A stretch of 35,640 nucleotides of DNA from a virus. The translations under genes were made by a program, and so were the position numbers. A model generated the notes under the pieces. The model was given only the letters and a program-made list of their open reading frames with translations. It was not told the origin of the DNA and made no database searches. Every line of letters begins with the position of its first letter. Positions within the stretch are counted from its first letter, which is position 1. Positions 8,185-35,197 of this stretch are shown here, one piece after another. Where the stretch lies: IMG/VR virus record IMGVR_UViG_3300045131_001801, positions 1-35,640 of that record; one strand, 5' to 3'.

Positions 8185-8203
8185 CGCCTTTTCTCCCTCT
8201 TCA

Positions 8204-8238
8204 CTATTAGCTATTCGCTATTAGCTCTTAACTCTCAC
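8204..8238. repeat. Degenerate heptamer tract between genes
   Basis: Five 7-bp units on the plus strand read CTATTAG, CTATTCG, CTATTAG, CTCTTAA, CTCTCAC. The tract fills the 50-bp gap between the Lar-like gene and the stop codon of the upstream minus-strand gene, overlapping that stop codon. Confidence 0.75.
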
Positions 8239-8555
8239 TTCGTTGTTGCTGCCAGCTCCGCATACGGCATCGCCTGCTGCGCCGCGTAGTGCAGAGCGCC
8301 ACTCGCGCCGCGCTGCGTCTCGACCCACCGGCCCCTGGCCCCGCGCTCCGCCACGCTCCACGTCCAGACGCCCGCCGCCCGCCATACCCGCGCCCGGCGC
8401 AGGCCGTGCGCCGACGAAGCCATCCAGCCGCGCCGCCAATACCAGCGCTGCCACGCCCCGTCCACTAGCTCCCATCCCGTCTTGGGCGTCCATCCCGCGT
8501 CGGCGGTCTTGTACTTCGGCATGGGTCGGCGGTATTCGGTCAGGGCGCAGCTCAT
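8235..8555 (-). CDS. Hypothetical early protein, 106 aa
   Basis: Start ATG 8555 (MSCALTEYRRP) overlaps the upstream gene by 4 bp and has a GGTGGATC site; the longer open frame to 8735 overlaps that gene completely and is rejected. The product is unusually rich in Trp and Arg (WTPKTGWELVDGAWQRWYWRRGW region), suggesting beta strands with exposed aromatic residues. No family recognised. Its stop lies in a heptamer repeat tract. Confidence 0.55.
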   Translation of the reverse strand: MSCALTEYRRPMPKYKTADAGWTPKTGWELVDGAWQRWYWRRGWMASSAHGLRRARVWRAAGVWTWSVAERGARGRWVETQRGASGALHYAAQQAMPYAELAATTK

Positions 8556-9671: not shown

Positions 9672-10101
9672 GGGCCACCGCCTTCCCCTTCATCTGCCGC
9701 GCCAGGAGCTGCACGCGCACGGCGCTCTTGATCACCTCGACGGCCTTGACCGCGTCCTCGTCGCTGAGCGTGCCGACCAGCGCCACGAAGTCCATGGCCA
9801 TCCCCGCCGCCCGCTTGAGCGGCGTCTCCTCAGCAGCCTCCAGCTCCTGGCCGCACAGCTCCCGGATCTTCTCCAGCGCCAGTTGCCAGTTCGCCCCGTT
9901 GCCCTGGTCTGCCACCGTCCGCACGTCACGCGCCAGCGCCGCCGCGCCGCTGCACACCGTGCGCGAGCACGCCCCGCCGCTCTCGCACTGGCACCGGCAC
10001 ACGTCCGCACCTTTTACCTCTGACCTCTTACCTGTTACCTCATACTTCTCAACCATCTCCGAGTGCATCCTGTCTACCGTCGCCTGTGTCTTCTTGTCCA
10101 T
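9664..10101 (-). CDS. Hypothetical early protein, 145 aa
   Basis: Starts at ATG 10101 with a GGGAGAA site. Residues 19-32 (KYEVTGKRSEVKGA) are encoded by a degenerate heptamer tract. A Cys cluster follows (CRCQCESGGACSRTVC, about 36-51) and then a long mainly helical region (WQLALEKIRELCGQELEAAEE; DEDAVKAVEVIKSAVRVQLL). A metal-binding site from the Cys cluster is possible. No family recognised. Confidence 0.6.
   Translation of the reverse strand: MDKKTQATVDRMHSEMVEKYEVTGKRSEVKGADVCRCQCESGGACSRTVCSGAAALARDVRTVADQGNGANWQLALEKIRELCGQELEAAEETPLKRAAGMAMDFVALVGTLSDEDAVKAVEVIKSAVRVQLLARQMKGKAVARA
10014..10048. repeat. Degenerate heptamer tract inside 5' coding end
   Basis: Five 7-bp units on the plus strand read TTACCTC, TGACCTC, TTACCTG, TTACCTC, ATACTTC. 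The tract lies in codons 18-30 of the minus-strand gene starting at 10101. Confidence 0.75.
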
Positions 10102-12186: not shown

Positions 12187-12786
12187 GTGAAGACCATGGA
12201 TAAACGGCAGAAAACCGAGCGCGCTCGGGCTGATGGAAGCGGGTCGTTCTCCCCCCGTTCAATCGCCACCCCGCGCCGCTCACTTTCGCAAAACGCAAAA
12301 GCGCACGCCGCGTGCGCTTTTGCGGTTCTCGCTTCGGCGCTCCCCTTCGCCGCCCTCGCCGGAGAGTCCGGAAGCACCACAACCGTCGTGCTCGACGTGG
12401 CCAAGAACGGGGCGCTCGGCGCGTTCCTCGCCGCCGCCGTGGTCTGGCTCAACGGCCAGTACAGGCAGCGCAAGGCCGACGCCCCTACGCCGCCCGAGCG
12501 CAACCCGCCCCTGGGCGAGGAGGCCGCCAAGACGTACGTGACGAAAGGCGAGCTGGAGCGCTGCCAGGGAGTGTGCCGCAAGGACATCATCGACCTCCGC
12601 GCCAAGATCGACGCGAACGACGAGCACGCCGAGAAGCGCTCGATCTCCACACACCGCCGCATCGACGAGCTGCTCATCTGCCAGCAGAAGACCAACAAGG
12701 GACTCGGCATGCTGATCGGCATCATGGTCGGCAAAGGCATCGCGCCCTCATCCATGGCCAGCGTAACCCTCAACGAGGAGGCATAA
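12187..12786 (+). CDS. Membrane/coiled-coil protein, DUF2730- or holin-like position
   Basis: About 199 residues from GTG 12187 (or 196 from ATG 12196; AGAGGA upstream). It has a basic N terminus, a hydrophobic signal-like segment (about 39-58, ending ALAGE), a second hydrophobic helix (about 75-90, GALGAFLAAAVVWL), and then a coiled coil around residues 118-165. This is the layout of DUF2730-type proteins found just before terminase genes in Mu-like phages; a holin-like role is an alternative. The first hydrophobic segment begins inside a REP-like palindrome (12294-12324), so repeat DNA is part of this coding sequence unless translation starts downstream. Confidence 0.6.
   Translation: MKTMDKRQKTERARADGSGSFSPRSIATPRRSLSQNAKAHAACAFAVLASALPFAALAGESGSTTTVVLDVAKNGALGAFLAAAVVWLNGQYRQRKADAPTPPERNPPLGEEAAKTYVTKGELERCQGVCRKDIIDLRAKIDANDEHAEKRSISTHRRIDELLICQQKTNKGLGMLIGIMVGKGIAPSSMASVTLNEEA
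12294..12324. repeat. REP-like palindrome inside coding sequence
   Basis: A perfect 12-bp stem (12294-12305 with 12313-12324) and a 7-base loop. A 17-base core plus flanks is shared with the copy at 13069; the two match at about 31 of 34 positions, apart from loop and arm differences. Here it encodes the start of a signal-like hydrophobic segment. Confidence 0.75.
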
Positions 12787-12791
12787 CCCCC

Positions 12792-13064
12792 ATGCTCACC
12801 GACGCCAAACGCAACCTCTACCGGCTCGCCCTGCTCCGCACGCTGAACAACTACGGCGGCGTCGAGGCGCAGCAGCAGCAGCTTGTTGTGGATCTCCAAA
12901 TCTCCGACATCCCCGACGCCACGACCGAGCACACCGCCGACGCGCTACAGGAAATGCTCGATAACGACTACGCCGCCAAGCGCAAGGACTTCTGCCGCGG
13001 CTGGCTCTGGAGCATCACGCCCGCAGGCCACAAGGCCGCCGTCGCGCTCGCCCTCGAAAACTGA
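12792..13064 (+). CDS. Small winged-helix-like protein (Mu gp26-like position)
   Basis: A 90-residue protein beginning at ATG 12792, five bases after the previous stop codon. Residues 5-30 form a helix (KRNLYRLALLRTLNNYGG), followed by a Gln-rich turn, a second helix (TADALQEMLDNDYAAKRKDF) and a short hairpin (WLWSITPAGHKAA), the pattern of a winged helix-turn-helix. Mu and its relatives encode similar small proteins between the membrane/coiled-coil gene and the small terminase. Role unknown. A longer open frame from 12312 overlaps its neighbour and is not used. Confidence 0.65.
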   Translation: MLTDAKRNLYRLALLRTLNNYGGVEAQQQQLVVDLQISDIPDATTEHTADALQEMLDNDYAAKRKDFCRGWLWSITPAGHKAAVALALEN

Positions 13065-13065
13065 A

Positions 13066-13099
13066 AACGCAAAAGCGCACGCGGCGTGCACTTTCGCAA
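13066..13099. repeat. Second REP-like palindrome copy
   Basis: Imperfect palindrome (arms 13069-13079 and 13087-13097, 7-base loop), almost identical in sequence to the copy at 12294 and located directly after the stop codon of the small winged-helix gene. Confidence 0.7.
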
Positions 13100-18408: not shown

Positions 18409-18813
18409 ATGAAGAAATGCATCGCACTCGCCGGGGCCATGATCGCCCTGGCCAACATCGGTGAGGGAGCCCACAGCAACGGCTACCTCACGCGCGTCGC
18501 CGAGGGCGCGGTTGTCAAGGGCCAGATCCTGAAGAAGGGCACGACCGACCGCGAGGTTAAAGCCTGCGCCGAGCTGACCGACGTGGGCCTCTACGTCGCG
18601 CTCGACAGCGCAGCGACCGGCGAAATCGTACCCGTCGCCGCGCTTGGCAACGCCAGCGGCACCGTGCTCGTCACGGCCTCCGGCGCGATTGCCGTGGGTG
18701 ACGCGATCAGCCCCACGGGCACCGCCGTCACGACCGGCCTGACCTGCGGACGCGCCCTTGTCGCGGCTGCGGACGGCGACCAGTTTGAAATGGCGCACAA
18801 GGTCTGCGCATAG
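18409..18813 (+). CDS. Capsid decoration-like protein (DUF2190-type)
   Basis: The 134-residue protein has an Ala/Gly/Val-rich beta sequence (LTRVAEGAVVKGQILKKG; DVGLYVALDSAATGEIVPVAALG; TVLVTASGAIAVGDAISPTGTAV) typical of DUF2190-like capsid cement proteins, which stabilise the head by binding outside the capsid shell. It lies between protease/scaffold and major capsid, the usual place for this gene. The hydrophobic N terminus may look like a signal peptide but is more likely a buried strand or helix. AAGGAG upstream. Confidence 0.65.
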   Translation: MKKCIALAGAMIALANIGEGAHSNGYLTRVAEGAVVKGQILKKGTTDREVKACAELTDVGLYVALDSAATGEIVPVAALGNASGTVLVTASGAIAVGDAISPTGTAVTTGLTCGRALVAAADGDQFEMAHKVCA

Positions 18814-19945: not shown

Positions 19946-20404
19946 ATGTCCACGCAAACCTCAGTCTGGCGAGCGCCCACCGAAAAGGACTTGTCCTCTT
20001 CGATCAGCGCATCTGAGATCGAAGCCTACCGCACGGCCTGCGCCGACGAGGAGCAGGGCGACCCCATCGCCAACCTGCTGACGCGCGGCACCGACCACGT
20101 GCGCGGCTACCTGCGGGCAAACAGCAAGATCGTCATGGGGCCGAAGGGCACGCTTCCCGAAAGCCTGATTGCTCCCTGCATGGACTTCTGCGCCTTCGAC
20201 GTGGTCAAGCGCGTGCCCCGCGCCAACACCGAGGATCGCCGCACGGCCCGCCGCGACGCGGTATCCCTATTCGGGCGCGTGCAGACCGGCGCGTTCGACG
20301 TGGAGTCGTACGGAGCCGAAGAGCCCCAGGGCTCAGCCGTCAGTTCGGAACTCGCATCCTCCTCCCGCCGCCGCGTTACCTCGCTCACCATGGACGGACT
20401 CTAA
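19946..20404 (+). CDS. Head-tail connector, gp36/DUF1320-like
   Basis: A 152-residue helical protein following the capsid gene. LSSSISASEIEAYRTACADEEQGDPIANLLTRGTDHVRGYL and later SLIAPCMDFCAFDVVKRVP resemble the DUF1320 pattern (Mu gp36), in which helices of a neck protein position arginines around the portal exit. Start ATG 19946 has AGGAG upstream. It should form a ring joining the portal and the tail. Confidence 0.7.
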   Translation: MSTQTSVWRAPTEKDLSSSISASEIEAYRTACADEEQGDPIANLLTRGTDHVRGYLRANSKIVMGPKGTLPESLIAPCMDFCAFDVVKRVPRANTEDRRTARRDAVSLFGRVQTGAFDVESYGAEEPQGSAVSSELASSSRRRVTSLTMDGL

Positions 20405-20415
20405 CAGCCTCCCCC

Positions 20416-20447
20416 CCTAACAGTCTAACAGCCTAACAGCCTAACCT
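20416..20447. repeat. CCTAACAG octamer tract before a gene start
   Basis: Four 8-bp units CCTAACAG, TCTAACAG, CCTAACAG, CCTAACCT end four bases before the ATG at 20451, replacing a Shine-Dalgarno site. A second tract of nearly the same sequence precedes the gene at 22012. Confidence 0.8.
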
Positions 20448-20450
20448 CCC

Positions 20451-21005
20451 ATGCCCATCGACCCCACAGACGATATCTACAACGCCAACCTCGCGGACGC
20501 CTCCGTCAGCGCCGTGCAGCTCGCCGTCAAGGCCCGCCTCCGCGCCTGCCCCTGGTTCGCCCCGATCAATATCCTCTACACGCAGCAGGGCAACATCGTC
20601 AACGAGATCGACATCGCGCTGGGCACCATGAGCAAGGGCTTCGGCGCGGGCCTGTGCGTCGTGGTCGGCACGCCCAACGCCGACGACAGCACCGACAACG
20701 TCGCCTGCCTCGACCTCGACCCCTTCTACATCGCCGTCGACGTTTACTCCGACCCGCTCACGGTCGACGGCCCAAAGGGCGTGCGCAAGTCCGTGGACGG
20801 CGTGGCGCTCAACGTGCTGCGCCTGCTCAAGGGCTGGACGCCGGTCGGCTTCAAAGGCCCCCTATCCGCCTTCCGCCCCACGATTTCCAACGTGCCCGAC
20901 TCAACCGGCTCGGGCATCGTCATCCGGCGCGTCGCCCTCAGCGGCGCACTGACACTCCCCGTCCTCCGCCTCGAAGGCGAAGGCATGTTTCCCGTCGCGG
21001 AATAA
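20451..21005 (+). CDS. Tail terminator-like protein (gp37/DUF1834 position)
   Basis: The 184-residue product follows the connector and precedes the tail tube, the place of the Mu gp37/tail-terminator gene. It has an N-terminal helix (VSAVQLAVKARLRACPWFA), beta strands typical of a tail-end protein (CLDLDPFYIAVDVYSDPL), and a helical segment (SVDGVALNVLRLLKGW). It should cap the tail tube. There is no Shine-Dalgarno site; a pyrimidine-rich repeat tract precedes the ATG. Confidence 0.55.
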   Translation: MPIDPTDDIYNANLADASVSAVQLAVKARLRACPWFAPINILYTQQGNIVNEIDIALGTMSKGFGAGLCVVVGTPNADDSTDNVACLDLDPFYIAVDVYSDPLTVDGPKGVRKSVDGVALNVLRLLKGWTPVGFKGPLSAFRPTISNVPDSTGSGIVIRRVALSGALTLPVLRLEGEGMFPVAE

Positions 21006-21017
21006 AGGACTCACATC

Positions 21018-21962
21018 ATGGACAGAAACCTTGTACTCAAAGGCCCGGCAGTCGTCATCCGGGGCGGGCACACCTACTTCACCAAGGGCGAGATCACCGT
21101 CAAGGTGAACAAAGAGACCTACAGCATCGAGAGCAACATCCTCGGCAGCGCGGGCAAGCGCGTCACGAGCAAGAGCTGCACCGTCTCGTTCGTTCCCCAG
21201 GGCATGCTCGACACCGTCGCCGCCTATTTCCCCTGGGGACAGGGCGACCTCGGCGCGAGCATCTTCGGCGCGACCGACACCACGCTCGTGATCCACACGC
21301 TCTCGGGCCGCAAGCTCACTTTCGCCGCCTCCGGCAACCTCGGCGTCCGTACGATCCACTGCGGAACGGATGCGACCGCGCTGGGCGAGATCTCCTTCCT
21401 CTGCCTCGGCAAGCTCGACACCGCAGACAGCACCGCAGACAGCCGCATCAAGGTCGAGGAGGCCGCGTTCGCCTCTACCGGCCTTGACCGCGCCAAGATC
21501 CGCACGCCCGGCTATCAGGCATCGCTCGCCATCGGCGCGGCCACGCCCGTTGTCATGCAGGGGCTGGAAGGGTTCGACATCAATATCGAGCCGTCCTTTG
21601 ATCCCGACAGCGTCAACGCCTACGGGCTCGTCGGGCAGACCCTCAGCGGGATCGCGGCGAACGCGACGTTCAAGCCCTGCAACATGACGGAGTCGGGCGT
21701 GCTCTCCCTGCTCAACATCCAGGGCAGCGGCTGCCAGGAGATCGGCGACGACCTAGGCCCCGCCGACGCGACGCTCACCATCGCCCCGATCAGCAACACG
21801 GCCAAGGGTGTGACGGCGATCCTGTACGGCGTCGGAGCCGAAGAGGCCGAGTTCAAGTTCGGGCTCAAGCAGAAGCGCGTGCAGGGCGTCAAGTTCGACG
21901 CCTCCCCGATCCTCGATACCACCTTCAAACTGTTCAGCGTCGCCTTTCCGTCATGGACGTGA
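21018..21962 (+). CDS. Major tail tube protein
   Basis: The 314-residue protein is mainly predicted beta strands with repeated hydrophobic/polar alternation (GHTYFTKGEITVKVNKETYSIE; DTTLVIHTLSGRKLTFAASGNL; KGVTAILYGVGAEEAEFKFGLK). Such a protein right after the tail terminator and with no sheath gene beside it fits the tube subunit of a non-contractile tail. Two similar halves seem to start with GLEGF- or LKGPA-type segments, so a duplicated tube fold is possible. Start ATG 21018 with AAAGGA. Confidence 0.6.
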   Translation: MDRNLVLKGPAVVIRGGHTYFTKGEITVKVNKETYSIESNILGSAGKRVTSKSCTVSFVPQGMLDTVAAYFPWGQGDLGASIFGATDTTLVIHTLSGRKLTFAASGNLGVRTIHCGTDATALGEISFLCLGKLDTADSTADSRIKVEEAAFASTGLDRAKIRTPGYQASLAIGAATPVVMQGLEGFDINIEPSFDPDSVNAYGLVGQTLSGIAANATFKPCNMTESGVLSLLNIQGSGCQEIGDDLGPADATLTIAPISNTAKGVTAILYGVGAEEAEFKFGLKQKRVQGVKFDASPILDTTFKLFSVAFPSWT

Positions 21963-21972
21963 CCGCCGTTTT

Positions 21973-22004
21973 CCTAACAGTCTAACAGCCTAAACCCCTA
22001 ACAG
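21973..22004. repeat. Second CCTAACAG octamer tract
   Basis: Four 8-bp units CCTAACAG, TCTAACAG, CCTAAACC, CCTAACAG lie between the tail tube stop and the ATG at 22012. No Shine-Dalgarno site is visible. Confidence 0.8.
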
Positions 22005-22011
22005 CCTTCTT

Positions 22012-22418: not shown

Positions 22419-24131
22419 ATGCGCCGTCAACTATTAACTCTTAGTTATTACCTCTTAACTCTCTCCCCCGTCTTCTCCCAGTCCGTGATTCGCACGCTCG
22501 CCTGGGAACTCGACACCGCCCGGCCCGCGCTCCAGGAGTGGGCGCTCGTGCGCGGCGAGACCGTTGACATCGAATGCCGCTATCTCGCGGGCGCGTCGGC
22601 CATGGACGTGCGCGGAGCGACGGTCGTGCTGCACGCCCGTACGAACGGCATGCCCGCCGACCTCTCGTTCCAGGTCACGGGCCGCGTCGGGCGCGTCAGC
22701 TCCACCAACCTCGCGGCGGTTGGCTGGGTCACGGTGCGCCTGCGTCCGGATCTCGACCTTCCGCACGACGTGACGCGCTGCACCTTCAGCCTCGACACCT
22801 CCCTCGACGCCGCCCGCAACCTCGTGGCCACCGGCCTGCTGCGCCTGTCCGGCGACCCCACGGGCGTCACGCCTATGGCGCTCGCCGCCGGAGTATACGA
22901 CGCCAGGGGCAGCGCGCAAACCGTCAGCAACGCGCTTGCGGCGGCCCTGCAATACGCGCTGACATCCTCCATCCCTGCGCAGATCGCCAACGCGACACCC
23001 GCCGTGCTGGCCGCTGCGGCCTTGGCGACCAGCCAGACGGTGGCGCTTGCGATCAGCAACCTTCCCCCGTCCGGACTATCGGCTGTGACCGTGACAGGGA
23101 TCGTCACGGCGGCAGTCAGCAACTCGCTCGCGTCGCTTCCGCCCGCGCCGACCGGCGTGCCGGTGTGGATCGGCACGGACGGCAGCGATTTCGCGACCGT
23201 CGAGCCGGGGCCGGTATTCGTCGCGTGGAATAGGACTCAAGCAGGTTGGCACGCGACTCCTGAAGCGGAAGGCATAGACACCTCCGTTCTTCCCTTCCCG
23301 CTCGCACTCGGTGAATACGGTTTATTTATTGTACTCAGGAACCCCGATGACACCTTCGGCATATATTACGGATCGGACTGGCGGAAAGATTCGGTAGATG
23401 ATTTTTCAATCACGAATTTCACCTTGTTGAACGTCAACGATCAAAGAGGGGTGGATGTGCATTACAGGCGTGCGGCGACAAACTATGTCACCCGCCTCGC
23501 GACGACAAACGACTTGTCCCTGCTCCTTACGACCGCCAGTCTCGAAGAATGGTGGGACACGAAACAGGCGATCATCAACAACCAGTCATTTTTATCCGCG
23601 CTGCGCCTCGCGACTCCGGACGGCTCGCGCTGGATCGACGCCACCGGAGCCGTCTGGACGGTGACGGTCGCCCCAGCCACAACTACCAACATGTCGTTAT
23701 CGCCAGGCTTCGGCTACGTCAATGCTAATTCCGACTTCGTAGCGCCGTCTCAGAGCCAATACACGCTCCCGTTTGTCGACGGTGACTGGCAGGGCTATAT
23801 CGTCAATTCTGCGACCGGAGAGTACGGCGTCTACCAGTCGGTTGACGGCATGGAGTGGCGCAATTCCGACTATGCTGGAAATGTCCTCGACCTGACGAAT
23901 CTGACCGGCTGGGCCGGCGCGTACACCCACGTCGGCTACGCCACGGTCAGCATTCAGGCAGTCGGAACCGCAGTCACCTCACGCGTAGACACCGTCGCCC
24001 TGCTGTCCGACATCGCCGGACTGTCAAGCGCCTGGACAAACTCCCTGCTCTACGCGAGCAACGGGACAAACTACTACCCGCGCTGGGACTCGGCGCTGCA
24101 AACCTACGTGGTCATGGGGGTGCCTCAATGA
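22419..24131 (+). CDS. Fibre/baseplate-like protein with repeat-encoded N terminus
   Basis: A 570-residue protein from ATG 22419 (AGGAG upstream). Residues 1-22 (MRRQLLTLSYYLLTLSPVFSQ) look like a signal peptide, but codons 4-15 are a heptamer repeat tract. Residues 25-155 form an IgG-like beta domain (RGETVDIECRYL; VRGATVVLHARTNG; GWVTVRLRPDLDL) similar in layout to the N-terminal domain of BppU-type baseplate proteins. An Ala/Thr-rich helix with VSNALAAALQYAL and a C-terminal beta part follow. A virion adsorption part is the best guess; export is the alternative. It overlaps the next gene by 4 bp. Confidence 0.65.
   Translation: MRRQLLTLSYYLLTLSPVFSQSVIRTLAWELDTARPALQEWALVRGETVDIECRYLAGASAMDVRGATVVLHARTNGMPADLSFQVTGRVGRVSSTNLAAVGWVTVRLRPDLDLPHDVTRCTFSLDTSLDAARNLVATGLLRLSGDPTGVTPMALAAGVYDARGSAQTVSNALAAALQYALTSSIPAQIANATPAVLAAAALATSQTVALAISNLPPSGLSAVTVTGIVTAAVSNSLASLPPAPTGVPVWIGTDGSDFATVEPGPVFVAWNRTQAGWHATPEAEGIDTSVLPFPLALGEYGLFIVLRNPDDTFGIYYGSDWRKDSVDDFSITNFTLLNVNDQRGVDVHYRRAATNYVTRLATTNDLSLLLTTASLEEWWDTKQAIINNQSFLSALRLATPDGSRWIDATGAVWTVTVAPATTTNMSLSPGFGYVNANSDFVAPSQSQYTLPFVDGDWQGYIVNSATGEYGVYQSVDGMEWRNSDYAGNVLDLTNLTGWAGAYTHVGYATVSIQAVGTAVTSRVDTVALLSDIAGLSSAWTNSLLYASNGTNYYPRWDSALQTYVVMGVPQ
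22429..22463. repeat. AACTCTT heptamer tract encoding a hydrophobic N terminus
   Basis: Five 7-bp units AACTATT, AACTCTT, AGTTATT, ACCTCTT, AACTCTC begin ten bases inside the gene at 22419 and encode QLLTLSYYLLTLS. Confidence 0.8.
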
Positions 24132-24856
24132 TTCGTTCGATCGTGATGCTGATCGCCGTTGCCGCTCTGCGCTCGCTGGCTAATCCGATTCCCGGCAGCG
24201 CCTGGCTGATGACCGATGGTGTAGAGGTCTATCCTAGCAACACCGTGGCGACCCCCGCCCAGGTGTCGCAGGTAGAGGGCACCGCGACCGAAGCGAGAGG
24301 CGTCGCTGAGGCTGCGGCTGCAATGGCCGCAGCGTGCGCCTCGAAGGTGGAGCTATTCAGCAGCAACTACGTCGTCACCTCGACCGTTTACGTGCAGAGC
24401 GTCGGTGCCGTCGCCTACGATCCCAGCAACCAGACCATGCGCGTCATCGGGCTGTCAGCGACGGCCACCAACCTGGTGATTGTGGCGACTGTGGCGCAGC
24501 TTCCGCTTGTCCCGCCCGCGCTGGACTGGCGGCAGACGCTCGGAAGCGGAGGGGCCTGGTCGAACGTCACGGCGACGGTACAGAGTGTGGATGTCCCGGA
24601 GGGTGCCACAAACGCCGTCGCCGCGTACGCGTTCACGCTGGCGCGTCCTGACGGCGGCAGCGCCTACTTCCGAGTTGTCGACAACTCAACCGGAGCGAGC
24701 GGCAGCGGCCTCTACTGGGTTGTCTTCGGCGGGCTGGTGGTCGACGGGCATAAGGGGGCGTCGGGAACAATCACCAACGTGGTCGGAAGCGTAACGAACT
24801 TCTATCGCAAGGTGGGCGGGATCATCGTCGAGCCCGAACCGCTGGGAGGGTTCTGA
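24128..24856 (+). CDS. Exported/fibre-associated protein, 242 aa
   Basis: Start ATG 24128 overlaps the previous gene (ATGA). Residues 1-19 (MIRSIVMLIAVAALRSLAN) form a clear signal-peptide-like segment. An Ala-rich helix (EATEARGVAEAAAAMAAACAS-like, about 48-70) is followed by a beta-rich domain with many Val/Thr/Asn residues and a Gly-rich end. The helix plus beta domain layout is fibre-like. No family recognised. Overlaps the next start by one base. Confidence 0.6.
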   Translation: MIRSIVMLIAVAALRSLANPIPGSAWLMTDGVEVYPSNTVATPAQVSQVEGTATEARGVAEAAAAMAAACASKVELFSSNYVVTSTVYVQSVGAVAYDPSNQTMRVIGLSATATNLVIVATVAQLPLVPPALDWRQTLGSGGAWSNVTATVQSVDVPEGATNAVAAYAFTLARPDGGSAYFRVVDNSTGASGSGLYWVVFGGLVVDGHKGASGTITNVVGSVTNFYRKVGGIIVEPEPLGGF

Positions 24857-25713
24857 TGCACTGGCAGCTTGCGCTTATCATCGCGTTCATTTTGCTCTAC
24901 CTGCTGGTTCGGGCGGCGGAGTCGCGGGCGTTGTGCGACATGTGGTCTGAGCTGCGCCGACTTTGGCGCGTAGCCGGTGTTCCGGGCCGTGCGCTGGCCA
25001 TCGCCGCCCTGATCCTTGCGACGCAGTCCGCTGGCAGTAAGGGCATCGCCCCCGTCACGAAACTGATGCGCATGGTCTTCTGGACGCCCGGATCGCCGTG
25101 GCAGCTTATGACGGCTGCGTCCGACGCCGACGCTGCTGCTGCCGCTGTAGGGCAGGCAACAGACGATCTGACCGCGGCATCCGCTGCCACCAACTCGGCT
25201 ATATGGACGCTGTCTTTCGACTGGCATGCGCCCGAGCGGCTGCCGTACCACGATCAGCAGAACGTGCTCGCCTACGTGCCGTGGGTGTTCCCCACGAACA
25301 TCGGCGGCGTGGCGTATGAGGATCATTGCGTGGCGTTCAACGCGGTCGCCTCCACGAATCCCGCCGTGATCATGATCGAGTATGCCCGCCGGTTAGACGA
25401 CGGCACGGTCGAGCGGCACACCTCCGGCGTGGTCACCTCCAGCTATCCGCACACGCGCACCGTTGCCCTGGAGTCCGGATCGTACGAATGCTACTGGTTC
25501 CGTTGCGCGGTTCCTGTCCCCTACACCAACAGCGTCAGGGACTGGAGCGGCGAGGCGCTATTCGGAGCGCCGTACGACAGCGGCAAAGGATTCGATCTGT
25601 TGGGCACACTGGTGGTCGATGACGGCAATGAAGTGTGGGTCGGTGCGAACACCAACATGGTGTTCTGTGGCACGACCAACATCGTCCGCAACGGGGCGAT
25701 CACGGAGGACTGA
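24856..25713 (+). CDS. Membrane-anchored protein, 285 aa
   Basis: The protein begins with a strong transmembrane helix (WQLALIIAFILLYLLVRAAE, about 3-22), a second hydrophobic segment follows at 45-58 (GRALAIAALILATQ), then an Ala-rich helix (about 87-112) and a beta-rich C-terminal domain with Tyr, Trp and Asn (for example RTVALESGSYECYWFRCAVPVPYTNSVRDW). The helix plus beta domain resembles the preceding two gene products, so the three may be paralogous fibre-like modules with different membrane anchors. GGGAGG precedes the ATG. Confidence 0.6.
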   Translation: MHWQLALIIAFILLYLLVRAAESRALCDMWSELRRLWRVAGVPGRALAIAALILATQSAGSKGIAPVTKLMRMVFWTPGSPWQLMTAASDADAAAAAVGQATDDLTAASAATNSAIWTLSFDWHAPERLPYHDQQNVLAYVPWVFPTNIGGVAYEDHCVAFNAVASTNPAVIMIEYARRLDDGTVERHTSGVVTSSYPHTRTVALESGSYECYWFRCAVPVPYTNSVRDWSGEALFGAPYDSGKGFDLLGTLVVDDGNEVWVGANTNMVFCGTTNIVRNGAITED

Positions 25714-25714
25714 C

Positions 25715-25960
25715 ATGAAAACGATTATCGCCATAGCTGTGATGTTTTCCACCATCGTCCAGGCCGCTCAACCACAGCAACCCGCGCTGACCGGCAAGCG
25801 CCGCGCAGAGTTCCAAGGATCCAAAATCATCGAAAAAGCCGAGCGGAAAAAGACCGGAAAGAAAGGCGCGACCAACGAGTGGGAGTCAGCCCGTTCGTTT
25901 CCCATCATGTTCGCCCGACCCACTCTCATCAAAAAACCTAAAAAGGAGACCAGACCATGA
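25715..25960 (+). CDS. Small exported basic protein, 81 aa
   Basis: Start ATG 25715 has GGAGG at the end of the previous gene; a longer upstream frame is a shadow. A signal peptide (MKTIIAIAVMFSTIVQAAQ) is followed by a very basic mature part rich in Lys and Arg (AERKKTGKKGATNEWESARS, KKPKKETRP). Unknown function. A basic periplasmic peptide could bind the cell wall or nucleic acid. Overlaps the next gene by 4 bp. Confidence 0.6.
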   Translation: MKTIIAIAVMFSTIVQAAQPQQPALTGKRRAEFQGSKIIEKAERKKTGKKGATNEWESARSFPIMFARPTLIKKPKKETRP

Positions 25961-26364
25961 AACGCACACTCGCAATGCTCGCACTCGCCTCGGCGATGAT
26001 ACTCGGTTCAGGCTGCACGTCGGTCACAGAGGGGAAAATCAAGGCAGGCGGAAGCTGGGCTAAGGAGTACTACAACTCAGCCAACGTCGCCGAAATCTGG
26101 ACGATTGAGAATACGAATACCAATCAGGTGTGCGAGTTCACCGTCAAGAATTTCACACGCTTCACGATGAACACTCCGGTTCCTCCGAAGTCGGTTATTC
26201 CTCGCGATCCGACGTGGGGCGAAGGTCTGTTCGATATGATCAAGACGGTCGCTCCGTACGCGTTCATGGGTTATATCTTCAGCGGAGCAAACTTGGGCGG
26301 TGGGACTACGGCAAGCTCGACGACGATTAACCAGGCTGCGGCAGCGACAGCCGTGACGCCCTGA
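25957..26364 (+). CDS. Lipoprotein, 135 aa
   Basis: A signal peptide with lipobox LGSGC places the lipid-bearing cysteine at residue 21 (MKRTLAMLALASAMILGSGC). The mature part has a beta-rich region (AEIWTIENTNTNQVCEFTVKNFTRFTMN) and a Gly/Ala/Thr-rich C terminus with a weak hydrophobic segment (APYAFMGYIFSGANLGG). AAAGGAG precedes the start. Surface or periplasmic lipoproteins in prophages often cause superinfection exclusion or help lysis (Rz1-type); neither is established here. Confidence 0.65.
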   Translation: MKRTLAMLALASAMILGSGCTSVTEGKIKAGGSWAKEYYNSANVAEIWTIENTNTNQVCEFTVKNFTRFTMNTPVPPKSVIPRDPTWGEGLFDMIKTVAPYAFMGYIFSGANLGGGTTASSTTINQAAAATAVTP

Positions 26365-26377
26365 TAGGAGTCCGTCC

Positions 26378-26527
26378 ATGCGCAACCCAAACCTTTTCTT
26401 CGCCCTGATGGCCGCGTGCTTCCTCGCCGCGATCTGCGGCAGTTGCTCAGGCTGCGCCCTTTTCGTTCCCGAGGGTGAGGCGACCTTCTGGTCAGAGCCC
26501 GCCTCTGCGACGGAGGCGCAGCCATGA
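26378..26527 (+). CDS. Small lipoprotein, 49 aa (Rz1-like size)
   Basis: ATG 26378 with AGGAG eight bases upstream opens a 49-codon frame ending at TGA 26525-26527. The product has a hydrophobic signal (MRNPNLFFALMAACFLAAICGSC) with several cysteines that could serve as the lipidated residue (AICGSC or SGC), and a short acidic mature tail (VPEGEATFWSEPASATEAQP). It overlaps the DUF1353 gene by 4 bp. Size and neighbourhood are like Rz1-type spanin lipoproteins, although the tail is acidic rather than proline-rich, so that is only a suggestion. Confidence 0.6.
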   Translation: MRNPNLFFALMAACFLAAICGSCSGCALFVPEGEATFWSEPASATEAQP

Positions 26528-27054
26528 GCGAAATCAACACCCTCTCTTACGAGGTAGCCCCGCCCGGATCTCCGGACAAGTTCCGGCTGACCGAAGACGC
26601 GCACTCCGTCTGGTCGGGCGTGCCGCGCTGGATCTGGGAGATCGTCGTGCGCAAGGCCGTGCGCCTCGACAACGGCTATGTCGTGGCCTATCTGTGCGAG
26701 GGCAAGCGCGAGCTGCACGCCTGCATCTTCCGGGGTTTTTACTTCGCCATCAGTGTAGCGCCCTCCTTCCGGCGCTCGCTGCCCGCCGCCGTCTTTCACG
26801 ACTGGCTGTACGCCAACGCCGCATTGCTGGCCGCCGCGTGGGGCTGCCCTCGCCGCACGGTGCTGCACCTGGCAGACCACTGGTTTCTCGCCCTCATGCG
26901 GGCCACGGGCTTCCTGCTCAAGCGCACGTACTTCTGCGCTGTGCGCATCTGCGGCTTCGCCTTCAATTCGCTTTTCGGACAGTCCGAAAAACGCGCCGAC
27001 CCTCCTGGTGCAGGGCCGCGCGAAACAAACAAGGAGGATACACACCATGCTTAA
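26524..27054 (+). CDS. DUF1353 family phage protein
   Basis: The 176-residue product matches the DUF1353 pattern: an N-terminal beta part (VVRKAVRLDNGYVVAYLCEGK), a GFYFAISVAPS segment, then AAVFHDWLYANAALL (the family's HD-LY motif, about residues 95-110) followed by ADHWFLALMRATGF and an aromatic helix (TYFCAVRICGFAF). DUF1353 proteins occur across tailed phages, often in or near the lysis region, and their function is not established. The HDWLY and ADH-F motifs resemble a metal or catalytic site. Overlaps the small lipoprotein by 4 bp and the next gene by 8 bp. Confidence 0.75.
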   Translation: MSEINTLSYEVAPPGSPDKFRLTEDAHSVWSGVPRWIWEIVVRKAVRLDNGYVVAYLCEGKRELHACIFRGFYFAISVAPSFRRSLPAAVFHDWLYANAALLAAAWGCPRRTVLHLADHWFLALMRATGFLLKRTYFCAVRICGFAFNSLFGQSEKRADPPGAGPRETNKEDTHHA

Positions 27055-27547
27055 GTTGATGACCTTTGCCGCAGGCCTTGCGCTGTGCGGCATTCTTTTC
27101 AGCCCGCAGTTGGCTGCGGCGGGGCCTGTGCCTTTCGACGGCGACATCACGATTGCCGCCGCCGACACCTCGGCGACCGAGGGCGTGCCTCTGTCCGCCG
27201 CCGCCTGCGAGATCGAGCGCATCGTGTTTTACAACTCGGGCGCGGCGACCTGCGCGGTCAGCGTGGCCGTGACGGATATCGGCGTCTCGACCGCGCTCGA
27301 CACGTTCGCGCTGGCCGCCACGTCAGGTGCCAGCCAGTACCCGCCGGGGCGGCAGCGGGTCACGTATGAGCAGACCGCAGTCGTAACCGGCAATGTGGCA
27401 ATCGTTCGGCTGACTTCTAGCACGAACTGGGTGCCGATCCTTGCCCGCGACCTGACCATTACGGTCGCCAAGCCGACCAACGCAACGGACTGCGTGTACT
27501 TCTACCGCGTCTACACCCGTGACCCCGGACGCCTCCCAGGCAATTGA
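27047..27547 (+). CDS. Exported or structural protein, 166 aa
   Basis: Start ATG 27047 with AAGGAGGA upstream. A signal peptide (MLKLMTFAAGLALCGILFSPQLAAAG) precedes a beta-rich mature domain with alternating Val/Thr/Ala (FDGDITIAAADTSATEGVPL; TCAVSVAVTDIGVSTALDTFALAATSGA; DLTITVAKPTNATDCVYFYRVYTRD). Such all-beta secreted proteins are unusual for a virion. It is the last gene of the 22419-27547 block, which closes with a hairpin. Confidence 0.6.
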   Translation: MLKLMTFAAGLALCGILFSPQLAAAGPVPFDGDITIAAADTSATEGVPLSAAACEIERIVFYNSGAATCAVSVAVTDIGVSTALDTFALAATSGASQYPPGRQRVTYEQTAVVTGNVAIVRLTSSTNWVPILARDLTITVAKPTNATDCVYFYRVYTRDPGRLPGN

Positions 27548-27550
27548 CCT

Positions 27551-27585
27551 GCGGGGCGCGTGCAGCCTACATGCACGCGCCCCGC
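27551..27585 (+). terminator. Hairpin closing the exported-protein block
   Basis: A perfect 14-bp GC-rich stem (27551-27564 with 27572-27585) and a 7-base loop lie three bases after the stop codon. The bases following are C-rich rather than T-rich, so termination efficiency is uncertain. The loop is flanked by TGCA-N7-TGCA, as at 178 and 35528. Confidence 0.6.
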
Positions 27586-27595
27586 CCCGCTCCCC

Positions 27596-27630
27596 AACTA
27601 TTAACCATTAACTCTTAACTATTAACTCTC
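27596..27630. repeat. AACTATT/AACTCTT heptamer tract up to a start codon
   Basis: Five 7-bp units AACTATT, AACCATT, AACTCTT, AACTATT, AACTCTC abut the ATG at 27631 directly. No Shine-Dalgarno site is present for that gene. Confidence 0.85.
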
Positions 27631-28425
27631 ATGTTGTTCTCCTCGCCCACCTCCATCGACGCCGCGCTCAAACACCAGCACGCCAAGACCGTGCTGCCCA
27701 CGTCGCTGTCGTCGGGCGAGATCGCCGAGCAGTGGCCCGCCGAGGTGCGCCGCCATTCCGTCTTTTCCGCCCGCACCACACACGAGGGCTACATCAAAGA
27801 CTTCGCCCGGATGCTCAAGAACCTCGTGTCCGGCGACGCGGTTGAAGATCCGGCCACGGGAGAGCTTCGCCCGCGCGGCAAGGGCGAGGGCTTCAATCCC
27901 AGCCTGGTGCGCACGCGCATGCAGAACTACCTCAAGGAGACCGGCTATACGCCCGACACCGGCACAGAGGGCAGCCTGACCGATCTCTCCAGCGACCGCC
28001 GCGTTGACCTCATCATCGACACGCAGACCAAAATGGCGCAGGGTTACGCCCGCCACGAGGCCGCGCAAGATCCGGACGTGCTCGAGGACTTCCCCGCCGA
28101 CGAGATGTACCGGCAGCGCGACAGCAAGACCAAGCGCGACTGGGACATCACGTGGAACGCCGCCCGCGAGTCCCTGGGCGAAGCCACCAGCGCCAGCCTG
28201 GCCACCGGCAGGGACGGCCCGTTCGTCGCGCTCAAGAACGATCCCATCTGGACGGCCATCAGCCGCTTCGGCAACCCCTATCCTCCGTTCGACTACAGTT
28301 CCGGCATGTGGATTCGCGACGCGGACTACGATCTCGCCGAGCGCCTCGGCGTGCTCAAGCATTGGAAACCCGATCCTCGGCACTCTCCCTTTTTTAATCC
28401 CGCACAGGAGGGAGGCGTTGAATGA
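27631..28425 (+). CDS. MuF-like minor head protein, displaced
   Basis: The 264-residue protein resembles the C-terminal half of MuF/gp30-type head morphogenesis proteins: a region with DTQTKMAQGYARHEAAQDPDVLEDFPADEMYRQRD, then DWDITWNAA, a KNDPIWTAIS segment and the end FGNPYPPFDYSSGMWIRDADYDLAERLGVL, like the NPYPPF-SGM signature at the end of this family. In Mu the F gene lies between portal and protease; here it lies 10 kb downstream of them. It should sit inside the head near the portal. No Shine-Dalgarno site; overlaps the next gene by 4 bp. Confidence 0.65.
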   Translation: MLFSSPTSIDAALKHQHAKTVLPTSLSSGEIAEQWPAEVRRHSVFSARTTHEGYIKDFARMLKNLVSGDAVEDPATGELRPRGKGEGFNPSLVRTRMQNYLKETGYTPDTGTEGSLTDLSSDRRVDLIIDTQTKMAQGYARHEAAQDPDVLEDFPADEMYRQRDSKTKRDWDITWNAARESLGEATSASLATGRDGPFVALKNDPIWTAISRFGNPYPPFDYSSGMWIRDADYDLAERLGVLKHWKPDPRHSPFFNPAQEGGVE

Positions 28426-30342: not shown

Positions 30343-30346
30343 GACC

Positions 30347-33193
30347 ATGGCGACAGTCGATTATCAGATTTGCCTGGCGCAGGCCACGGCGGGTGCCGAG
30401 ACCTGGACGTCCATCAGCGCCCTGGGCGGCTCGCGCCTGCGCAGGGAGCTGCGCGTCTGCGGCATGGACTATGCGGAGTTCACCGTCAACAGCGCCACGG
30501 CGTTGACGGACACGCCCGCGTTCGCCTACAAGGCCACCGTGCGCCTGCGCCGCGTCGTGGACGGCACGCCCTCGTATTGGTTTGTCGGTCGCATCATGAC
30601 GCAGCCGAAGAAAGGCTCGGGCGCGTCCGAGAAATACACCGTGCGGATCGAAGGGCCGTGGAGCTGGTTCGAGAACACGACGTTCCGGCAGCCGTGGGCG
30701 GCGTCGGGCGGCGGGCTTGTGAAGCCTCGCGTGATCCTCTTCTGCGACCAGTCCGGAGCGCGGATCACGACCGGCTCTCAGATCGTCGCCGCCGCAGAGT
30801 TCGCCAGGGCGGCGGGCTGCCCCATTGCGGCGGTCACCTCCGCCACAGTGGCCACCGGCTACACGCCGCCGTTCGACGAGCAGATCAACATCAAGGTCGC
30901 CGACGTGGTTTGCAAGGCTATGGCATTGCACCCGCACGCCTCATGCTGGTTCGATTACTCGCAGCGCGACGCGGTGTTTCACGTCGCCACGCGCTCGGCT
31001 CTGACTGCCGTGGAGTACTCCGTCGCCGGGCGCAAGGATATCGAGATCGGCGAGCGCACCGACATGCAGGTGCCAGCCATCGCGCTGTGCTACGAGCAGA
31101 GCGGCAGCGTCGACGGGCAGCCCTTCGTCAACACCACGCTCGACTGGGCACCCGTGGTCTCCGGCGAGAGCACCGCCGCCCGCGACGCCCGCCTCGCGCA
31201 GGTCGACGTGCTGTGGGCCTGCTACAATCTCCAGGGGGCGCAGGTCACGACCGTCTCGCAGAGCATCGTGGCCGAGGCCTTCCCGTCCACGTACACGCTG
31301 GCCTGGTGGCGTGCCCGCGCCCCGACGCTCTCGGAGTTCGCCGACGCCGACATCTCGATCAGCAACGTCCGGAGGCTGTACCTCTCCTCTCTGTCTAACC
31401 TCTTGGTCTCCGGCGAAAAGCAAACCTGGATGACCACGGTCAGCGTTGAAAAGGAACACATCCGCGCGGACGTGTCCTACGTCAAGCGGGCGCTGATCGA
31501 CGGCGTGAGCACCGTGATTGACCAGGGCGTGAAGTCGATCACGCTGGAGGTGTGGGTCACCGGCGCGGCCATCGGAGAGACGGTCTATCGCACGCCCGTG
31601 TCGGTCGACGAAGGCGAGCCCGTGCCCTCGGGCATCGCCGCCCAGCTCTACGCCGAATGGTCGCAGCTCCACTACCAGGGCACGCTCGTTCTGGTCGGAG
31701 ACGACCTGCCCGGCGACGCCGTGCCCGGCAAGGCCCTGAACCTGACGGGCGGAGAGACCGCCTGGGCGAGCATGGCCGCGATGATCATCTCCAGCAGCGA
31801 GGACGCCGACACAAGCGAGACGGAAATCGCCTTCGGCATACCCGACTGGACTGACATTGATAGCCGCGTCGCCTTCGCCCGCGCGACCCGCACGCGCAAC
31901 CCCGCCGAGTCCCGCGTGTGGCAGATGGGGCCGTCCGCCACGGGCGTGTCCGGCAGCGTCGCGGCCACGGTGATCCGCGACGGCAACGTCGACGCGGGCT
32001 ACGTGCGGCAGCTCTTCGCGGCGACCGGCAGCGTGCGCCACAAGATCATCATCGATGCCGACGCGTTCAGCAAGTCAACCGACGCCACGGCCGCCTCCGT
32101 CATCCAGCCCCGCGAGATCCTCGTCCCCTTCATCGACGCGTCGGACGGAGACAAGGTCAAGGCCCGCCCGTGCCAAGTCCTGGCATCCGCCCCGTACGGC
32201 ACGGCCGTAGCGGTCGGAGCCTCCGAGCTGGCCACCGCCACGCCCGCCGCCGTCGCCGCCACGGGCGCTGTGGGCGAGTCCCTGAAGGCCGCCCGTGAAG
32301 ACCATGTCCACGCCGGGGCCGCGCTCTCCGACGCCACGCCGAGCGCCGTTGCGGCCTCTGGAGCGGCGGGCGATGCCACCGCAGCCGCCCGCGCCAACCA
32401 CGTGCATGCGGGCGTACAACTGTCATCCGCGACGCCCGAGCCTATATCAGGCACCGGCAGTTCCGGATCAGGCACATCGGCGGCTCGCTCCGACCACACG
32501 CACGCGCTTACCCTCACAGTTCCAGGCCCAGGCCCTGACACGGGAACCACCGTTCCGGACGGCGGTTCCGAGCTGATGCCTGCGCCCTCCGGTTTCTTGG
32601 GGCTGGACGCGGCTTATTCCCGCCGCGACCATTCGCATCCCGTCAACGTATCCGCTGCGCTTCCCGCCGCCGTGGCCGACACCGCGTCTGCCGGGGTATC
32701 CCTGCGCTACTCCAGAGAGGATCACGTCCATGTCGGCGGCTCCGGATCTCTCGATACGGTTGCCCCGCTTGCTGACGGCACTGCGGCGGTGGGCGTGTCA
32801 ACCAAGGGAGCGCACGGGGATCATGTCCATCCGTCCAACGTCGGAGCGACAGCGCCATCCGCCCCTAACACGGCTGCCGCTGCCGGTTCATCGCTGGTCT
32901 ACGCCCGCGTTGATCATGTCCACCCGGCCCGCGCTACCGGGCTAGGCTCCGTCGTCACCATGGCCAACAGCGGCACGGCTGCCGCACAGACCGCCTTTGG
33001 TTGGCTGGTCGGCAACGCCGGACGGAACCCCGTCAAGCGCTGGTTTCATCGGGTCTGGTATCGGTCTACTGCGGGCAGTGAGGCACTGATAGGCACACAG
33101 CACTACGAGATCAACGATGCCGTCACGGGCGCTCTGATCGAGGTCGGCCCAGAGTCTGATTATGTCATCCATGTCCCGGAGCTGGGCGTCTGA
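30347..33193 (+). CDS. Tail hub/fibre protein with DHxH repeats
   Basis: A 948-residue protein. The N-terminal two thirds (1-620) is a mixed alpha/beta baseplate-like domain (for example VRLRRVVDGTPSYWFVGRIM; KYTVRIEGPWSWFENTTFRQPW) similar to siphovirus hub proteins. Residues about 645-860 hold seven tandem units ending in [S/A]RxDH[V/T/S]H, such as AREDHVHAG, ARANHVHAG, ARSDHTHAL and ARVDHVHPA. The HxH motifs coordinate metal in fibre tips of other phages and should form a trimeric metal-bound shaft. A beta-rich tip follows. Start ATG 30347 has AGGGAGGT. Receptor binding is the likely role of the end. Confidence 0.75.
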   Translation: MATVDYQICLAQATAGAETWTSISALGGSRLRRELRVCGMDYAEFTVNSATALTDTPAFAYKATVRLRRVVDGTPSYWFVGRIMTQPKKGSGASEKYTVRIEGPWSWFENTTFRQPWAASGGGLVKPRVILFCDQSGARITTGSQIVAAAEFARAAGCPIAAVTSATVATGYTPPFDEQINIKVADVVCKAMALHPHASCWFDYSQRDAVFHVATRSALTAVEYSVAGRKDIEIGERTDMQVPAIALCYEQSGSVDGQPFVNTTLDWAPVVSGESTAARDARLAQVDVLWACYNLQGAQVTTVSQSIVAEAFPSTYTLAWWRARAPTLSEFADADISISNVRRLYLSSLSNLLVSGEKQTWMTTVSVEKEHIRADVSYVKRALIDGVSTVIDQGVKSITLEVWVTGAAIGETVYRTPVSVDEGEPVPSGIAAQLYAEWSQLHYQGTLVLVGDDLPGDAVPGKALNLTGGETAWASMAAMIISSSEDADTSETEIAFGIPDWTDIDSRVAFARATRTRNPAESRVWQMGPSATGVSGSVAATVIRDGNVDAGYVRQLFAATGSVRHKIIIDADAFSKSTDATAASVIQPREILVPFIDASDGDKVKARPCQVLASAPYGTAVAVGASELATATPAAVAATGAVGESLKAAREDHVHAGAALSDATPSAVAASGAAGDATAAARANHVHAGVQLSSATPEPISGTGSSGSGTSAARSDHTHALTLTVPGPGPDTGTTVPDGGSELMPAPSGFLGLDAAYSRRDHSHPVNVSAALPAAVADTASAGVSLRYSREDHVHVGGSGSLDTVAPLADGTAAVGVSTKGAHGDHVHPSNVGATAPSAPNTAAAAGSSLVYARVDHVHPARATGLGSVVTMANSGTAAAQTAFGWLVGNAGRNPVKRWFHRVWYRSTAGSEALIGTQHYEINDAVTGALIEVGPESDYVIHVPELGV

Positions 33194-34231: not shown

Positions 34232-34306
34232 TTGTCCGGTTCTGCTTGTCTTCGCGCGCGCGAAGAGCGAACGTACGCACCCACGAAGCAAAACGGGAGA
34301 ACGGCA

Positions 34307-35197
34307 ATGAACGCGATTGAGACAATGCAGAACCTGACCTACGGAACCGAACTGGAATACACCGGCATCACGCGGCAACGCGCCGCAATGGCGATTCAGA
34401 GCGTGCTGGGAGGCACCTTGAGCCACACCGGAGGCGGCTATGACGAGTGGACGGTCACCGCTCCGGACGGGCGCAAATGGAAGGCGGTCAGCGACGGCAG
34501 CCTAGGCGATTACGCCAACAGCGCCGAGGTGGTAACGCCGATCCTTCGCTTTGCCGACCTCGACGCGCTACAGGAGGTGGTACGCGCCCTGCGCAAGGCC
34601 GGAGCCAAGGCCACCAGCGCGACCAGCCAGCACGTCCACGTCGGGGCCGCGCACTTTACCGCCAAGCAGCTCGCCAACCTCGCCCGCATCTTTTTCAAGC
34701 AAGAGGCGCTGATCCTCGCCGCCGCAGGCACGACCGCCCAGCGCCTCGCCCATTACACCAAGCCCACCGACGCCGGTTTCATCGCCCGCTTGGAGGCCGC
34801 CAAGCCCGCGACGCTGGACGCCCTCAACCGCGCTTGGTTCAACGGACACAACCCGCGCCCAGATCACTACGAGTCGCACCGCTACCACGCTCTCAATCTT
34901 AACAACATCTGGCGCACGGGCACGGTCGAGTTTCGCCTCTTCGAGGGCACGACGCACGCGGGCGAGGTCAAGGCCAACATCATCCTGTGCTTGGCTATCG
35001 CAGCCAAGGCGCTGCTGGCCCGCTCGGCGAGCGCCAAGAACGCCCGCACGCTCGACACCGCCTCTTCAAAATACGACTTCCGCGTCGTTCTGCTCGGCCT
35101 CGGCCTGATCGGCGACGAGTTCAAGAACGTGCGCAAGCACCTCCTGAAGCGCCTGTCCGGCGATTCGGCCTGGAAGCGCCAGACCCGCGCCGCTTGA
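34307..35197 (+). CDS. Amidoligase (glutamine synthetase-like fold, Amidoligase_2 family)
   Basis: The 296-residue enzyme should make amide bonds between a carboxylate and an amine using ATP. Visible motifs are YGTELEY at 12-18, with Glu15 and Glu17 as metal ligands, GSLGDYANSAEVVTP around 64-78 (Glu74), HVHVG at 109-113, and TVEFRLFEGT at 206-215 (Glu208, Arg210). Together these match the COOH-NH2 amidoligases of the glutamine synthetase superfamily. Start ATG 34307 has GGGAGA upstream. Substrate unknown; the family is linked to peptide or cell-wall modification and often occurs in phage or mobile elements next to small unknown proteins. The following 86-residue gene may be its partner or substrate. 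Confidence 0.85.
   Translation: MNAIETMQNLTYGTELEYTGITRQRAAMAIQSVLGGTLSHTGGGYDEWTVTAPDGRKWKAVSDGSLGDYANSAEVVTPILRFADLDALQEVVRALRKAGAKATSATSQHVHVGAAHFTAKQLANLARIFFKQEALILAAAGTTAQRLAHYTKPTDAGFIARLEAAKPATLDALNRAWFNGHNPRPDHYESHRYHALNLNNIWRTGTVEFRLFEGTTHAGEVKANIILCLAIAAKALLARSASAKNARTLDTASSKYDFRVVLLGLGLIGDEFKNVRKHLLKRLSGDSAWKRQTRAA

Follow-up and report, generated by a model that had tools for sequence, protein, structure and literature searches.

Several described proteins resemble products of an eight-gene block at positions 22419–27547 of the virus record IMGVR_UViG_3300045131_001801, the subject of this analysis (the whole record, 35,640 bp, is termed the window). Lambda lom and bor and T5 llp encode phage envelope proteins that are exported or are lipoproteins. 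BppU of TP901-1-like phages (PF10651, PDB 4v96) and the 80alpha baseplate (6v8i) offer multi-domain tail proteins with an N-terminal Ig-type domain, short tail fibres contain the phage tail collar domain (PF07484), and TtaP, a member of the DUF1353 family, acts as a phospholipase A2 through a His-Asp/Asp active site (PMC11525133). A missing signal peptide has been taken as support for the phage origin of a fibre-like protein (PMC6199706).

The window block departs from these systems in several respects. Its first gene product, g1, is like BppU and the 80alpha protein in the Ig-type domain and multi-domain build, but has a predicted Sec signal before the domain and belongs to a Mu-like phage module whose host is probably one of the Verrucomicrobiota. 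The TtaP-like g7 is encoded among exported proteins in a phage block, and, unlike Lom, Bor and Llp, the predicted exported proteins of the block are homologues of tail proteins in a conserved multi-gene set. The protein families are already known, and what is new is that their members carry export signals and do so in a conserved module; no description of this was found in the literature searched, which covered few subscription papers. A preliminary description of the locus had suggested an undescribed system, and this can be kept for the export of virion-type proteins only. The reading favoured here, tentatively and as one possibility, is that of a late-operon module of exported outer virion proteins, which would be loaded outside the cytoplasm, together with envelope-breaching proteins. 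What is said below of gene content, synteny, signals and the BppU, collar, cement and DUF1353 relationships comes from sequence analysis.

The block consists of eight tightly packed genes, g1 to g8, and is closed by a hairpin (related loci are given as L numbers):

22419–24131, + strand: g1, signal peptide followed by an Ig domain of the BppU N-terminal type, a coiled coil and a fibre-like C-terminus that varies (from a family of 32, profile and fold)
24128–24856, + strand: g2, signal peptide, helical linker and beta domain, fibre-like (homologue L095:11363-12142, 1.4e-15; positional counterpart L094:11308-12045)
24856–25713, + strand: g3, N-terminal membrane helix, helical linker and beta domain, fibre-like (from sequence; positional counterpart L094:12038-12949)
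25715–25960, + strand: g4, signal peptide, then a very basic 60-residue chain (detector; basic exported counterpart L094:12946-13623)
25957–26364, + strand: g5, lipoprotein, lipobox GSGC (detector; lipoproteins in the corresponding stretch of L009, L094, L098, L099 and L047)
26378–26527, + strand: g6, 49-residue lipoprotein, lipobox CSGC (from sequence)
26524–27054, + strand: g7, DUF1353, probable phospholipase A2, no signal (Pfam PF07087, 2.5e-5, above cut-off)
27047–27547, + strand: g8, signal peptide and small beta protein (detector; similar proteins in relatives)
27551–27585, + strand: GC-rich hairpin at the block end (folding energy)

Five of the seven gene junctions overlap by 1–8 nt, and g3/g4 and g5/g6 are separated by 1 and 13 nt; the coordinates, frames and coupling given earlier are right. 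Signals had been reported in seven of the eight genes. A rule-based detector is positive for six, and for a single one of the 37 window genes outside the block (Fisher p = 2e-5), and the seventh, g1, was added by eye and partly by homology (7/8 versus 1/37, p = 1e-6). The gene with no signal is g7, correctly named before as DUF1353. A lipobox-like SGC motif is present in each of g5 and g6; the detector scored g6 as a type I signal. The closing hairpin, also noticed at the outset, has a folding energy of −34 kcal/mol (z = −4.5) and no T run. Internal promoters and T-tailed terminators, in a scan of the + strand, were not above the shuffled-sequence level, and a simple scan for + strand consensus promoters came up empty for the block and the stretch immediately ahead of it, the consensus used being possibly not that of the host. 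With respect to morons (lysogenic conversion cassettes, sporadic and with a promoter and terminator of their own), the block lacks a + strand consensus promoter, has a hairpin at its end, and is recurrent rather than sporadic. Two other explanations were set aside: chance occurrence of signals was ruled out by comparison with core genes, and for polymorphic toxins no toxin domain was seen within the block.

Evidence for export comes from the g1 family. With a profile of g1 N-termini, relatives were detected in 22 of 388 genomes of one phylum, probably Verrucomicrobiota, at 27 listed places, of which 26 are confirmed open frames; with phage copies the family has 32 members, not all independent, as several genomes carry two. 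An export signal (signal peptide, lipobox or membrane helix) is present in 26 of the 32, with starts partly chosen by hand. The signals show a basic n-region and a hydrophobic core (or a transmembrane helix or lipobox), and in most signal-bearing members a small-x-small site is found 4–8 residues ahead of the invariant Trp of the domain. With fully automatic starts 14 of 19 are positive, and core virion genes of the same loci give 5 of 139, all with weak cores. Predicted export of g1-family proteins is well supported by sequence. The hydrophobic core of the window g1 has a mean Kyte–Doolittle value of 1.42, the weakest of the family (25 relatives, 2.1–3.1), and the case for its signal therefore rests partly on homology. 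Five members that are mutually alike (L073–L077) have a hydrophilic extension in place of the signal before the same domain; this sister group fits, as expected, a virion protein able to be made either way. At L084:1066-3288 the head connector gp36 runs in frame into a g1-family protein via a hydrophobic stretch; the junction has no ATG, GTG or TTG, and represents a fusion or an assembly error.

The hydrophobic core of the window g1 signal coincides with a direct repeat:

22430–22471, + strand: 7-nt tandem repeat coding the core (LLTLSYY-LLTLSPV), direct repeat family D3

Further D3 copies are at 8203, 10010 and 27597. Tandem repeats of 7 nt (once 8 nt) occur at or just before gene starts, with units that differ between phages. 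In the window the sites are 8203–8244, 10010–10051, 20400–20453, 21973–22010, 22430–22471 and 27597–27638, and elsewhere such repeats are found in L034, L087–L090, L095 and L097. A repeat-encoded signal core with a 7-residue period is present in the window g1 and in G1/g2 of L095, and signal peptides may arise from such tandem repeats.

The identity of g1 derives from its family. The BppU_N profile scores 4.6e-5 in 1 of 16 family members and 1.4e-4 in the L094 member, just short of the curated cut-off; the window g1 has no BppU_N match, and since its own sequence gives no Pfam match it is placed as BppU-type through the family. An AlphaFold2 model of the N-terminal domain, made from the relative L045 aligned with the window copy (four sequences; predicted local distance difference test, pLDDT, 63), has its best PDB matches (best E 3.5e-4) in the 80alpha baseplate and then in baseplate and neck proteins of other phages, TP901-1 BppU among them. 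Among viral structures the best matches are annotated ‘BppU domain protein’. Collagen or phage-tail repeats are found among the family proteins. Full-length g1 modelled from the single sequence gave no usable model (pLDDT 34). Direct homologues of g1, g5 and g7 were not found among 50,697 phage records, single-protein queries with the tail tube and g1 found none in viral contigs, a viral scan with a g1 sub-family alignment was empty, and a sequence-profile search of the PDB with the family gave weak matches only. In profile and predicted fold the conserved domain of g1 is the BppU domain, which makes g1 a BppU-type tail protein with a putative place in the baseplate.

To judge by their features, g1 has two smaller fibre-like partners in g2 and g3. 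Small exported beta proteins such as g8 are encoded between capsid and gp36, or nearby, in L007, L047, L055, L094, L098 and L099. Beside the g1 homologue of L098 is a 657-residue protein (L098:7977-9950) with the phage tail collar domain (2.3e-19), to which is added, relative to the known collar and short tail fibre proteins, a strong and obvious N-terminal signal. It matches 1032 phage records, and among the matches listed most are annotated tail fibres. Eleven tail proteins were checked at six isolate matches; ten are signal-less, and in the eleventh the detector falsely called the collar domain itself.

The sole detector-positive window gene outside the block concerns the head:

18409–18813, + strand: probable capsid cement protein; its N-terminal extension, MKKCIALAGAMIALANIGEGA, resembles a signal peptide

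This protein aligns by eye with the Phage_cement_2 protein of L047 (Pfam 2.3e-9) and matches phrog_673 (3.3e-8); it has no Pfam match of its own. Cement proteins with an N-terminal membrane helix are present at L054:8279-8779, L040:12170-12667(-) and L016:9717-10217 (PF09956, above cut-off) and, assigned by position, at L055:4315-4839(-) and L056:13473-13988(-). The cement proteins of L047 and L100 have no membrane helix.

The Mu-like siphophages B3 and D3112 share with the window a similar head-gene order (terminase, portal, protease, small gene, capsid, connector). In B3 and D3112, signals are absent from the small head genes, and among the tail genes a single short one, close to the end, is hydrophobic; MuF and gpG adjoin the portal, unlike in the window. 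The detector, when applied to Mu, B3 and D3112, finds lysis genes, the short hydrophobic tail gene (B3 and D3112) and a few small membrane genes, with one weak call, the Mu protease, and no fibre, cement or tube genes. The statement that ordinary virion proteins lack signal peptides thus applies to these three phages, but it is repeatedly broken by the relatives described here.

These comparisons bear on the proposal that the signals do not work, i.e. that the proteins are cytoplasmic and are built into virions in the usual way, and that their hydrophobic ends are for trimerisation or for insertion into the target envelope. The weak, repeat-coded signal of the window g1 and the existence of signal-less family members are in line with it. 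It is nevertheless very unlikely, given that diverse members have a charged n-region, a hydrophobic core and a small-x-small site at a fixed place before the domain, that g5 and g6 have lipoboxes, and that the fibre, tube and head genes of Mu, B3 and D3112, the weak protease call excepted, have no such N-termini.

The genes g4–g7 look like an envelope sub-module made up of a basic exported protein, two lipoproteins and DUF1353. The candidate catalytic residues of g7, H92-D93 and D118, correspond to the HD and downstream D of TtaP. The TtaP spacing of 15 residues is kept in L009 and L094, and is longer (26) in the window g7. By sequence g7 is a probable phospholipase A2, the activity having been shown for TtaP alone. 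Pfam recognised no lysis enzyme among the tested genes of the window, and g4–g7 may accordingly supply lysis functions; the relative L040 has an M15-like endolysin (by eye) upstream of the terminase. This difference from L040, together with the phospholipase activity of TtaP, favours a second alternative, in which g4–g7 are the main envelope-breaching genes and replace the canonical endolysin/spanin set, with g1–g3 and g8 as passengers. An Rz/Rz1 spanin arrangement was not seen in the sequence, where g4 is basic with no evident coiled coil and g5/g6 are not embedded. DUF1353 is found in few relatives only, and exported BppU and collar proteins would be left unexplained, so that a pure lysis or egress module appears quite unlikely. 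The earlier choice between an envelope or lysis module and membrane-anchored fibres is best answered by a mixture: BppU-type g1 with a Sec signal, fibre-like g2/g3 and envelope-like g4–g7.

As a module of the structural operon the block is conserved and not a one-off. L094, a prophage in a bacterial genome, has nearly the gene order of the window: tube, two short open frames, g1 (signal), g2-like (signal) and g3-like with a membrane helix, followed by a basic exported protein, a lipoprotein, DUF1353, MuF, gpG, tape measure and hub. Presence in related prophages, suggested previously as a check, is thereby found, and variants of the block occur in L095, L097, L098 and L099. The order in L009 is tail tube, signal-bearing g1 homologue, HNH/GDSL protein, lipoprotein, papain-like peptidase, DUF1353, exported beta protein and MuF. 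At L009:9360-12129 the N-terminus of the HNH/GDSL-hydrolase protein includes a hydrophobic segment, and the peptidase is of the papain-like C1 type. Apart from g2, with its clear homologue in L095, the small block genes are too diverged for pairwise detection, and equivalence is therefore based on position and features.

The proteins with profile matches to DUF3164, a MuB-like ATPase, the Mu portal, the Mu protease and a gp36-like protein indicate that the window phage is Mu-like. Its terminase has relatives at 24 viral-contig loci and in prophages inside genomes of a single phylum. Verru_Chthon_A (TIGR02600) scores in 30 of 59 genomes of the host phylum and in 0 of 14 controls, every score being below the curated cut-off, and from this pattern the host phylum is called, as probable, Verrucomicrobiota. 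The conserved neighbours of the block are:

21018–21962, + strand: tail tube-like protein, upstream (homologues in L009, L007, G006 and G010)
27631–28425, + strand: MuF-like protein, downstream (34% identity to the L009 and L007 homologues)

The site of the block, given before as between the tail tube gene and displaced MuF/tape-measure genes, is more exactly after the tail-tube region and before MuF/gpG/tape measure. The tail hub (30344–33193) has C-terminal repeats, ATP.AVAA.G..G....AR.DHVHAG, in a fibre-like region with no signal. An Amidoligase_2 gene (1.3e-55) is at 34232–35197, close to where the structural region ends on the right. A probable DUF2730/releasin-like membrane protein with a coiled coil is encoded at 12187–12786; the gene adjoins a winged-helix gene and the terminase, as in Mu gp25–gp28, and no endolysin was recognised nearby. 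Around these releasin-like and winged-helix genes are GC-rich inverted repeats (12290–12323 and 13064–13097, 91% identical, GCAAAAGCGCACG...CGTGCGCTTTTGC). An Rfam scan of the window was empty.

A signal-less hub with its own fibre repeats raises the question of whether the exported proteins are virion-borne at all. In a close rival explanation, the fibre-like proteins and lipoproteins remain on the host envelope for receptor masking (which would keep debris from trapping the progeny), for exclusion of other phages or as adhesins, comparable to lambda Lom/Bor and T5 Llp. The signals and lipoboxes agree with such cell-surface display, as does the GDSL hydrolase and papain-like peptidase coding of the L009 block. 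It should be pointed out, however, that the conserved part of g1 is the BppU baseplate-docking domain, which a surface protein need not retain, that the sister group makes this domain with no signal, and that the genes are in the virion operon, where the simple scan revealed no + strand promoter of their own. Display on the cell is considered a little less likely than loading onto virions.

Loading outside the cytoplasm is favoured because an exported protein that keeps a baseplate-docking domain is sensible if its encounter with virions follows the opening of the cytoplasm. The position of the block genes inside the structural operon, in an order matched in L094, also supports it, as do the g1-family signals, the virion-type identity (BppU_N, baseplate-like fold, tail repeats, the collar protein of L098), the signal-less sister group L073–L077 and the membrane helices on the cement proteins of L054, L040 and L016. 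The structural operon of Mu-like phages is transcribed late. The block would be a conserved late structural-operon module of Mu-like temperate phages with probable Verrucomicrobiota hosts, and the outer virion proteins (BppU-type fibre g1, its partners g2/g3 and small beta protein g8) would be made in exported form. The fibre proteins g1–g3 would be made late in infection, cross the inner membrane by Sec and fold in the periplasm, and the BppU-type domain would dock the fibres onto particles leaving the cytoplasm. The lipoproteins g5/g6 and phospholipase g7 might help in envelope opening. Actual export, late timing, virion docking and the lysis role are what we infer from the features above.

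Several points weigh against this. A Sec-exported protein cannot reach a cytoplasmic baseplate before lysis, and with a separate signal-less hub carrying DHVH-type fibre repeats, adsorption need not use g1. In the membrane-anchored cement-position proteins of L054, L055 and L056, basic residues after the helix suggest a cytoplasmic C-terminus and not export, and this cytoplasm-facing charge pattern speaks against a simple version of late loading. The signal calls come from the detector and not from SignalP, and the 26/32 family count includes the hand-chosen starts.

A broader form of the late-loading explanation is two-compartment assembly, whereby the core (head, portal, tube, tape measure and hub) is cytoplasmic, and fibres, small beta proteins and some cement proteins are sent to the membrane or periplasm and join the particle on its way out. 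It is thought unlikely; if true, the finished virion would only exist outside the cytoplasm. BppU-type, collar and possibly cement proteins with export signals would break the no-signal rule for virion proteins. Such a lineage would mean that annotation is misfiling phage genes as those of host surface proteins, and it would point either to virions that mature outside the cytoplasm or to hosts that display fibres of the phage.

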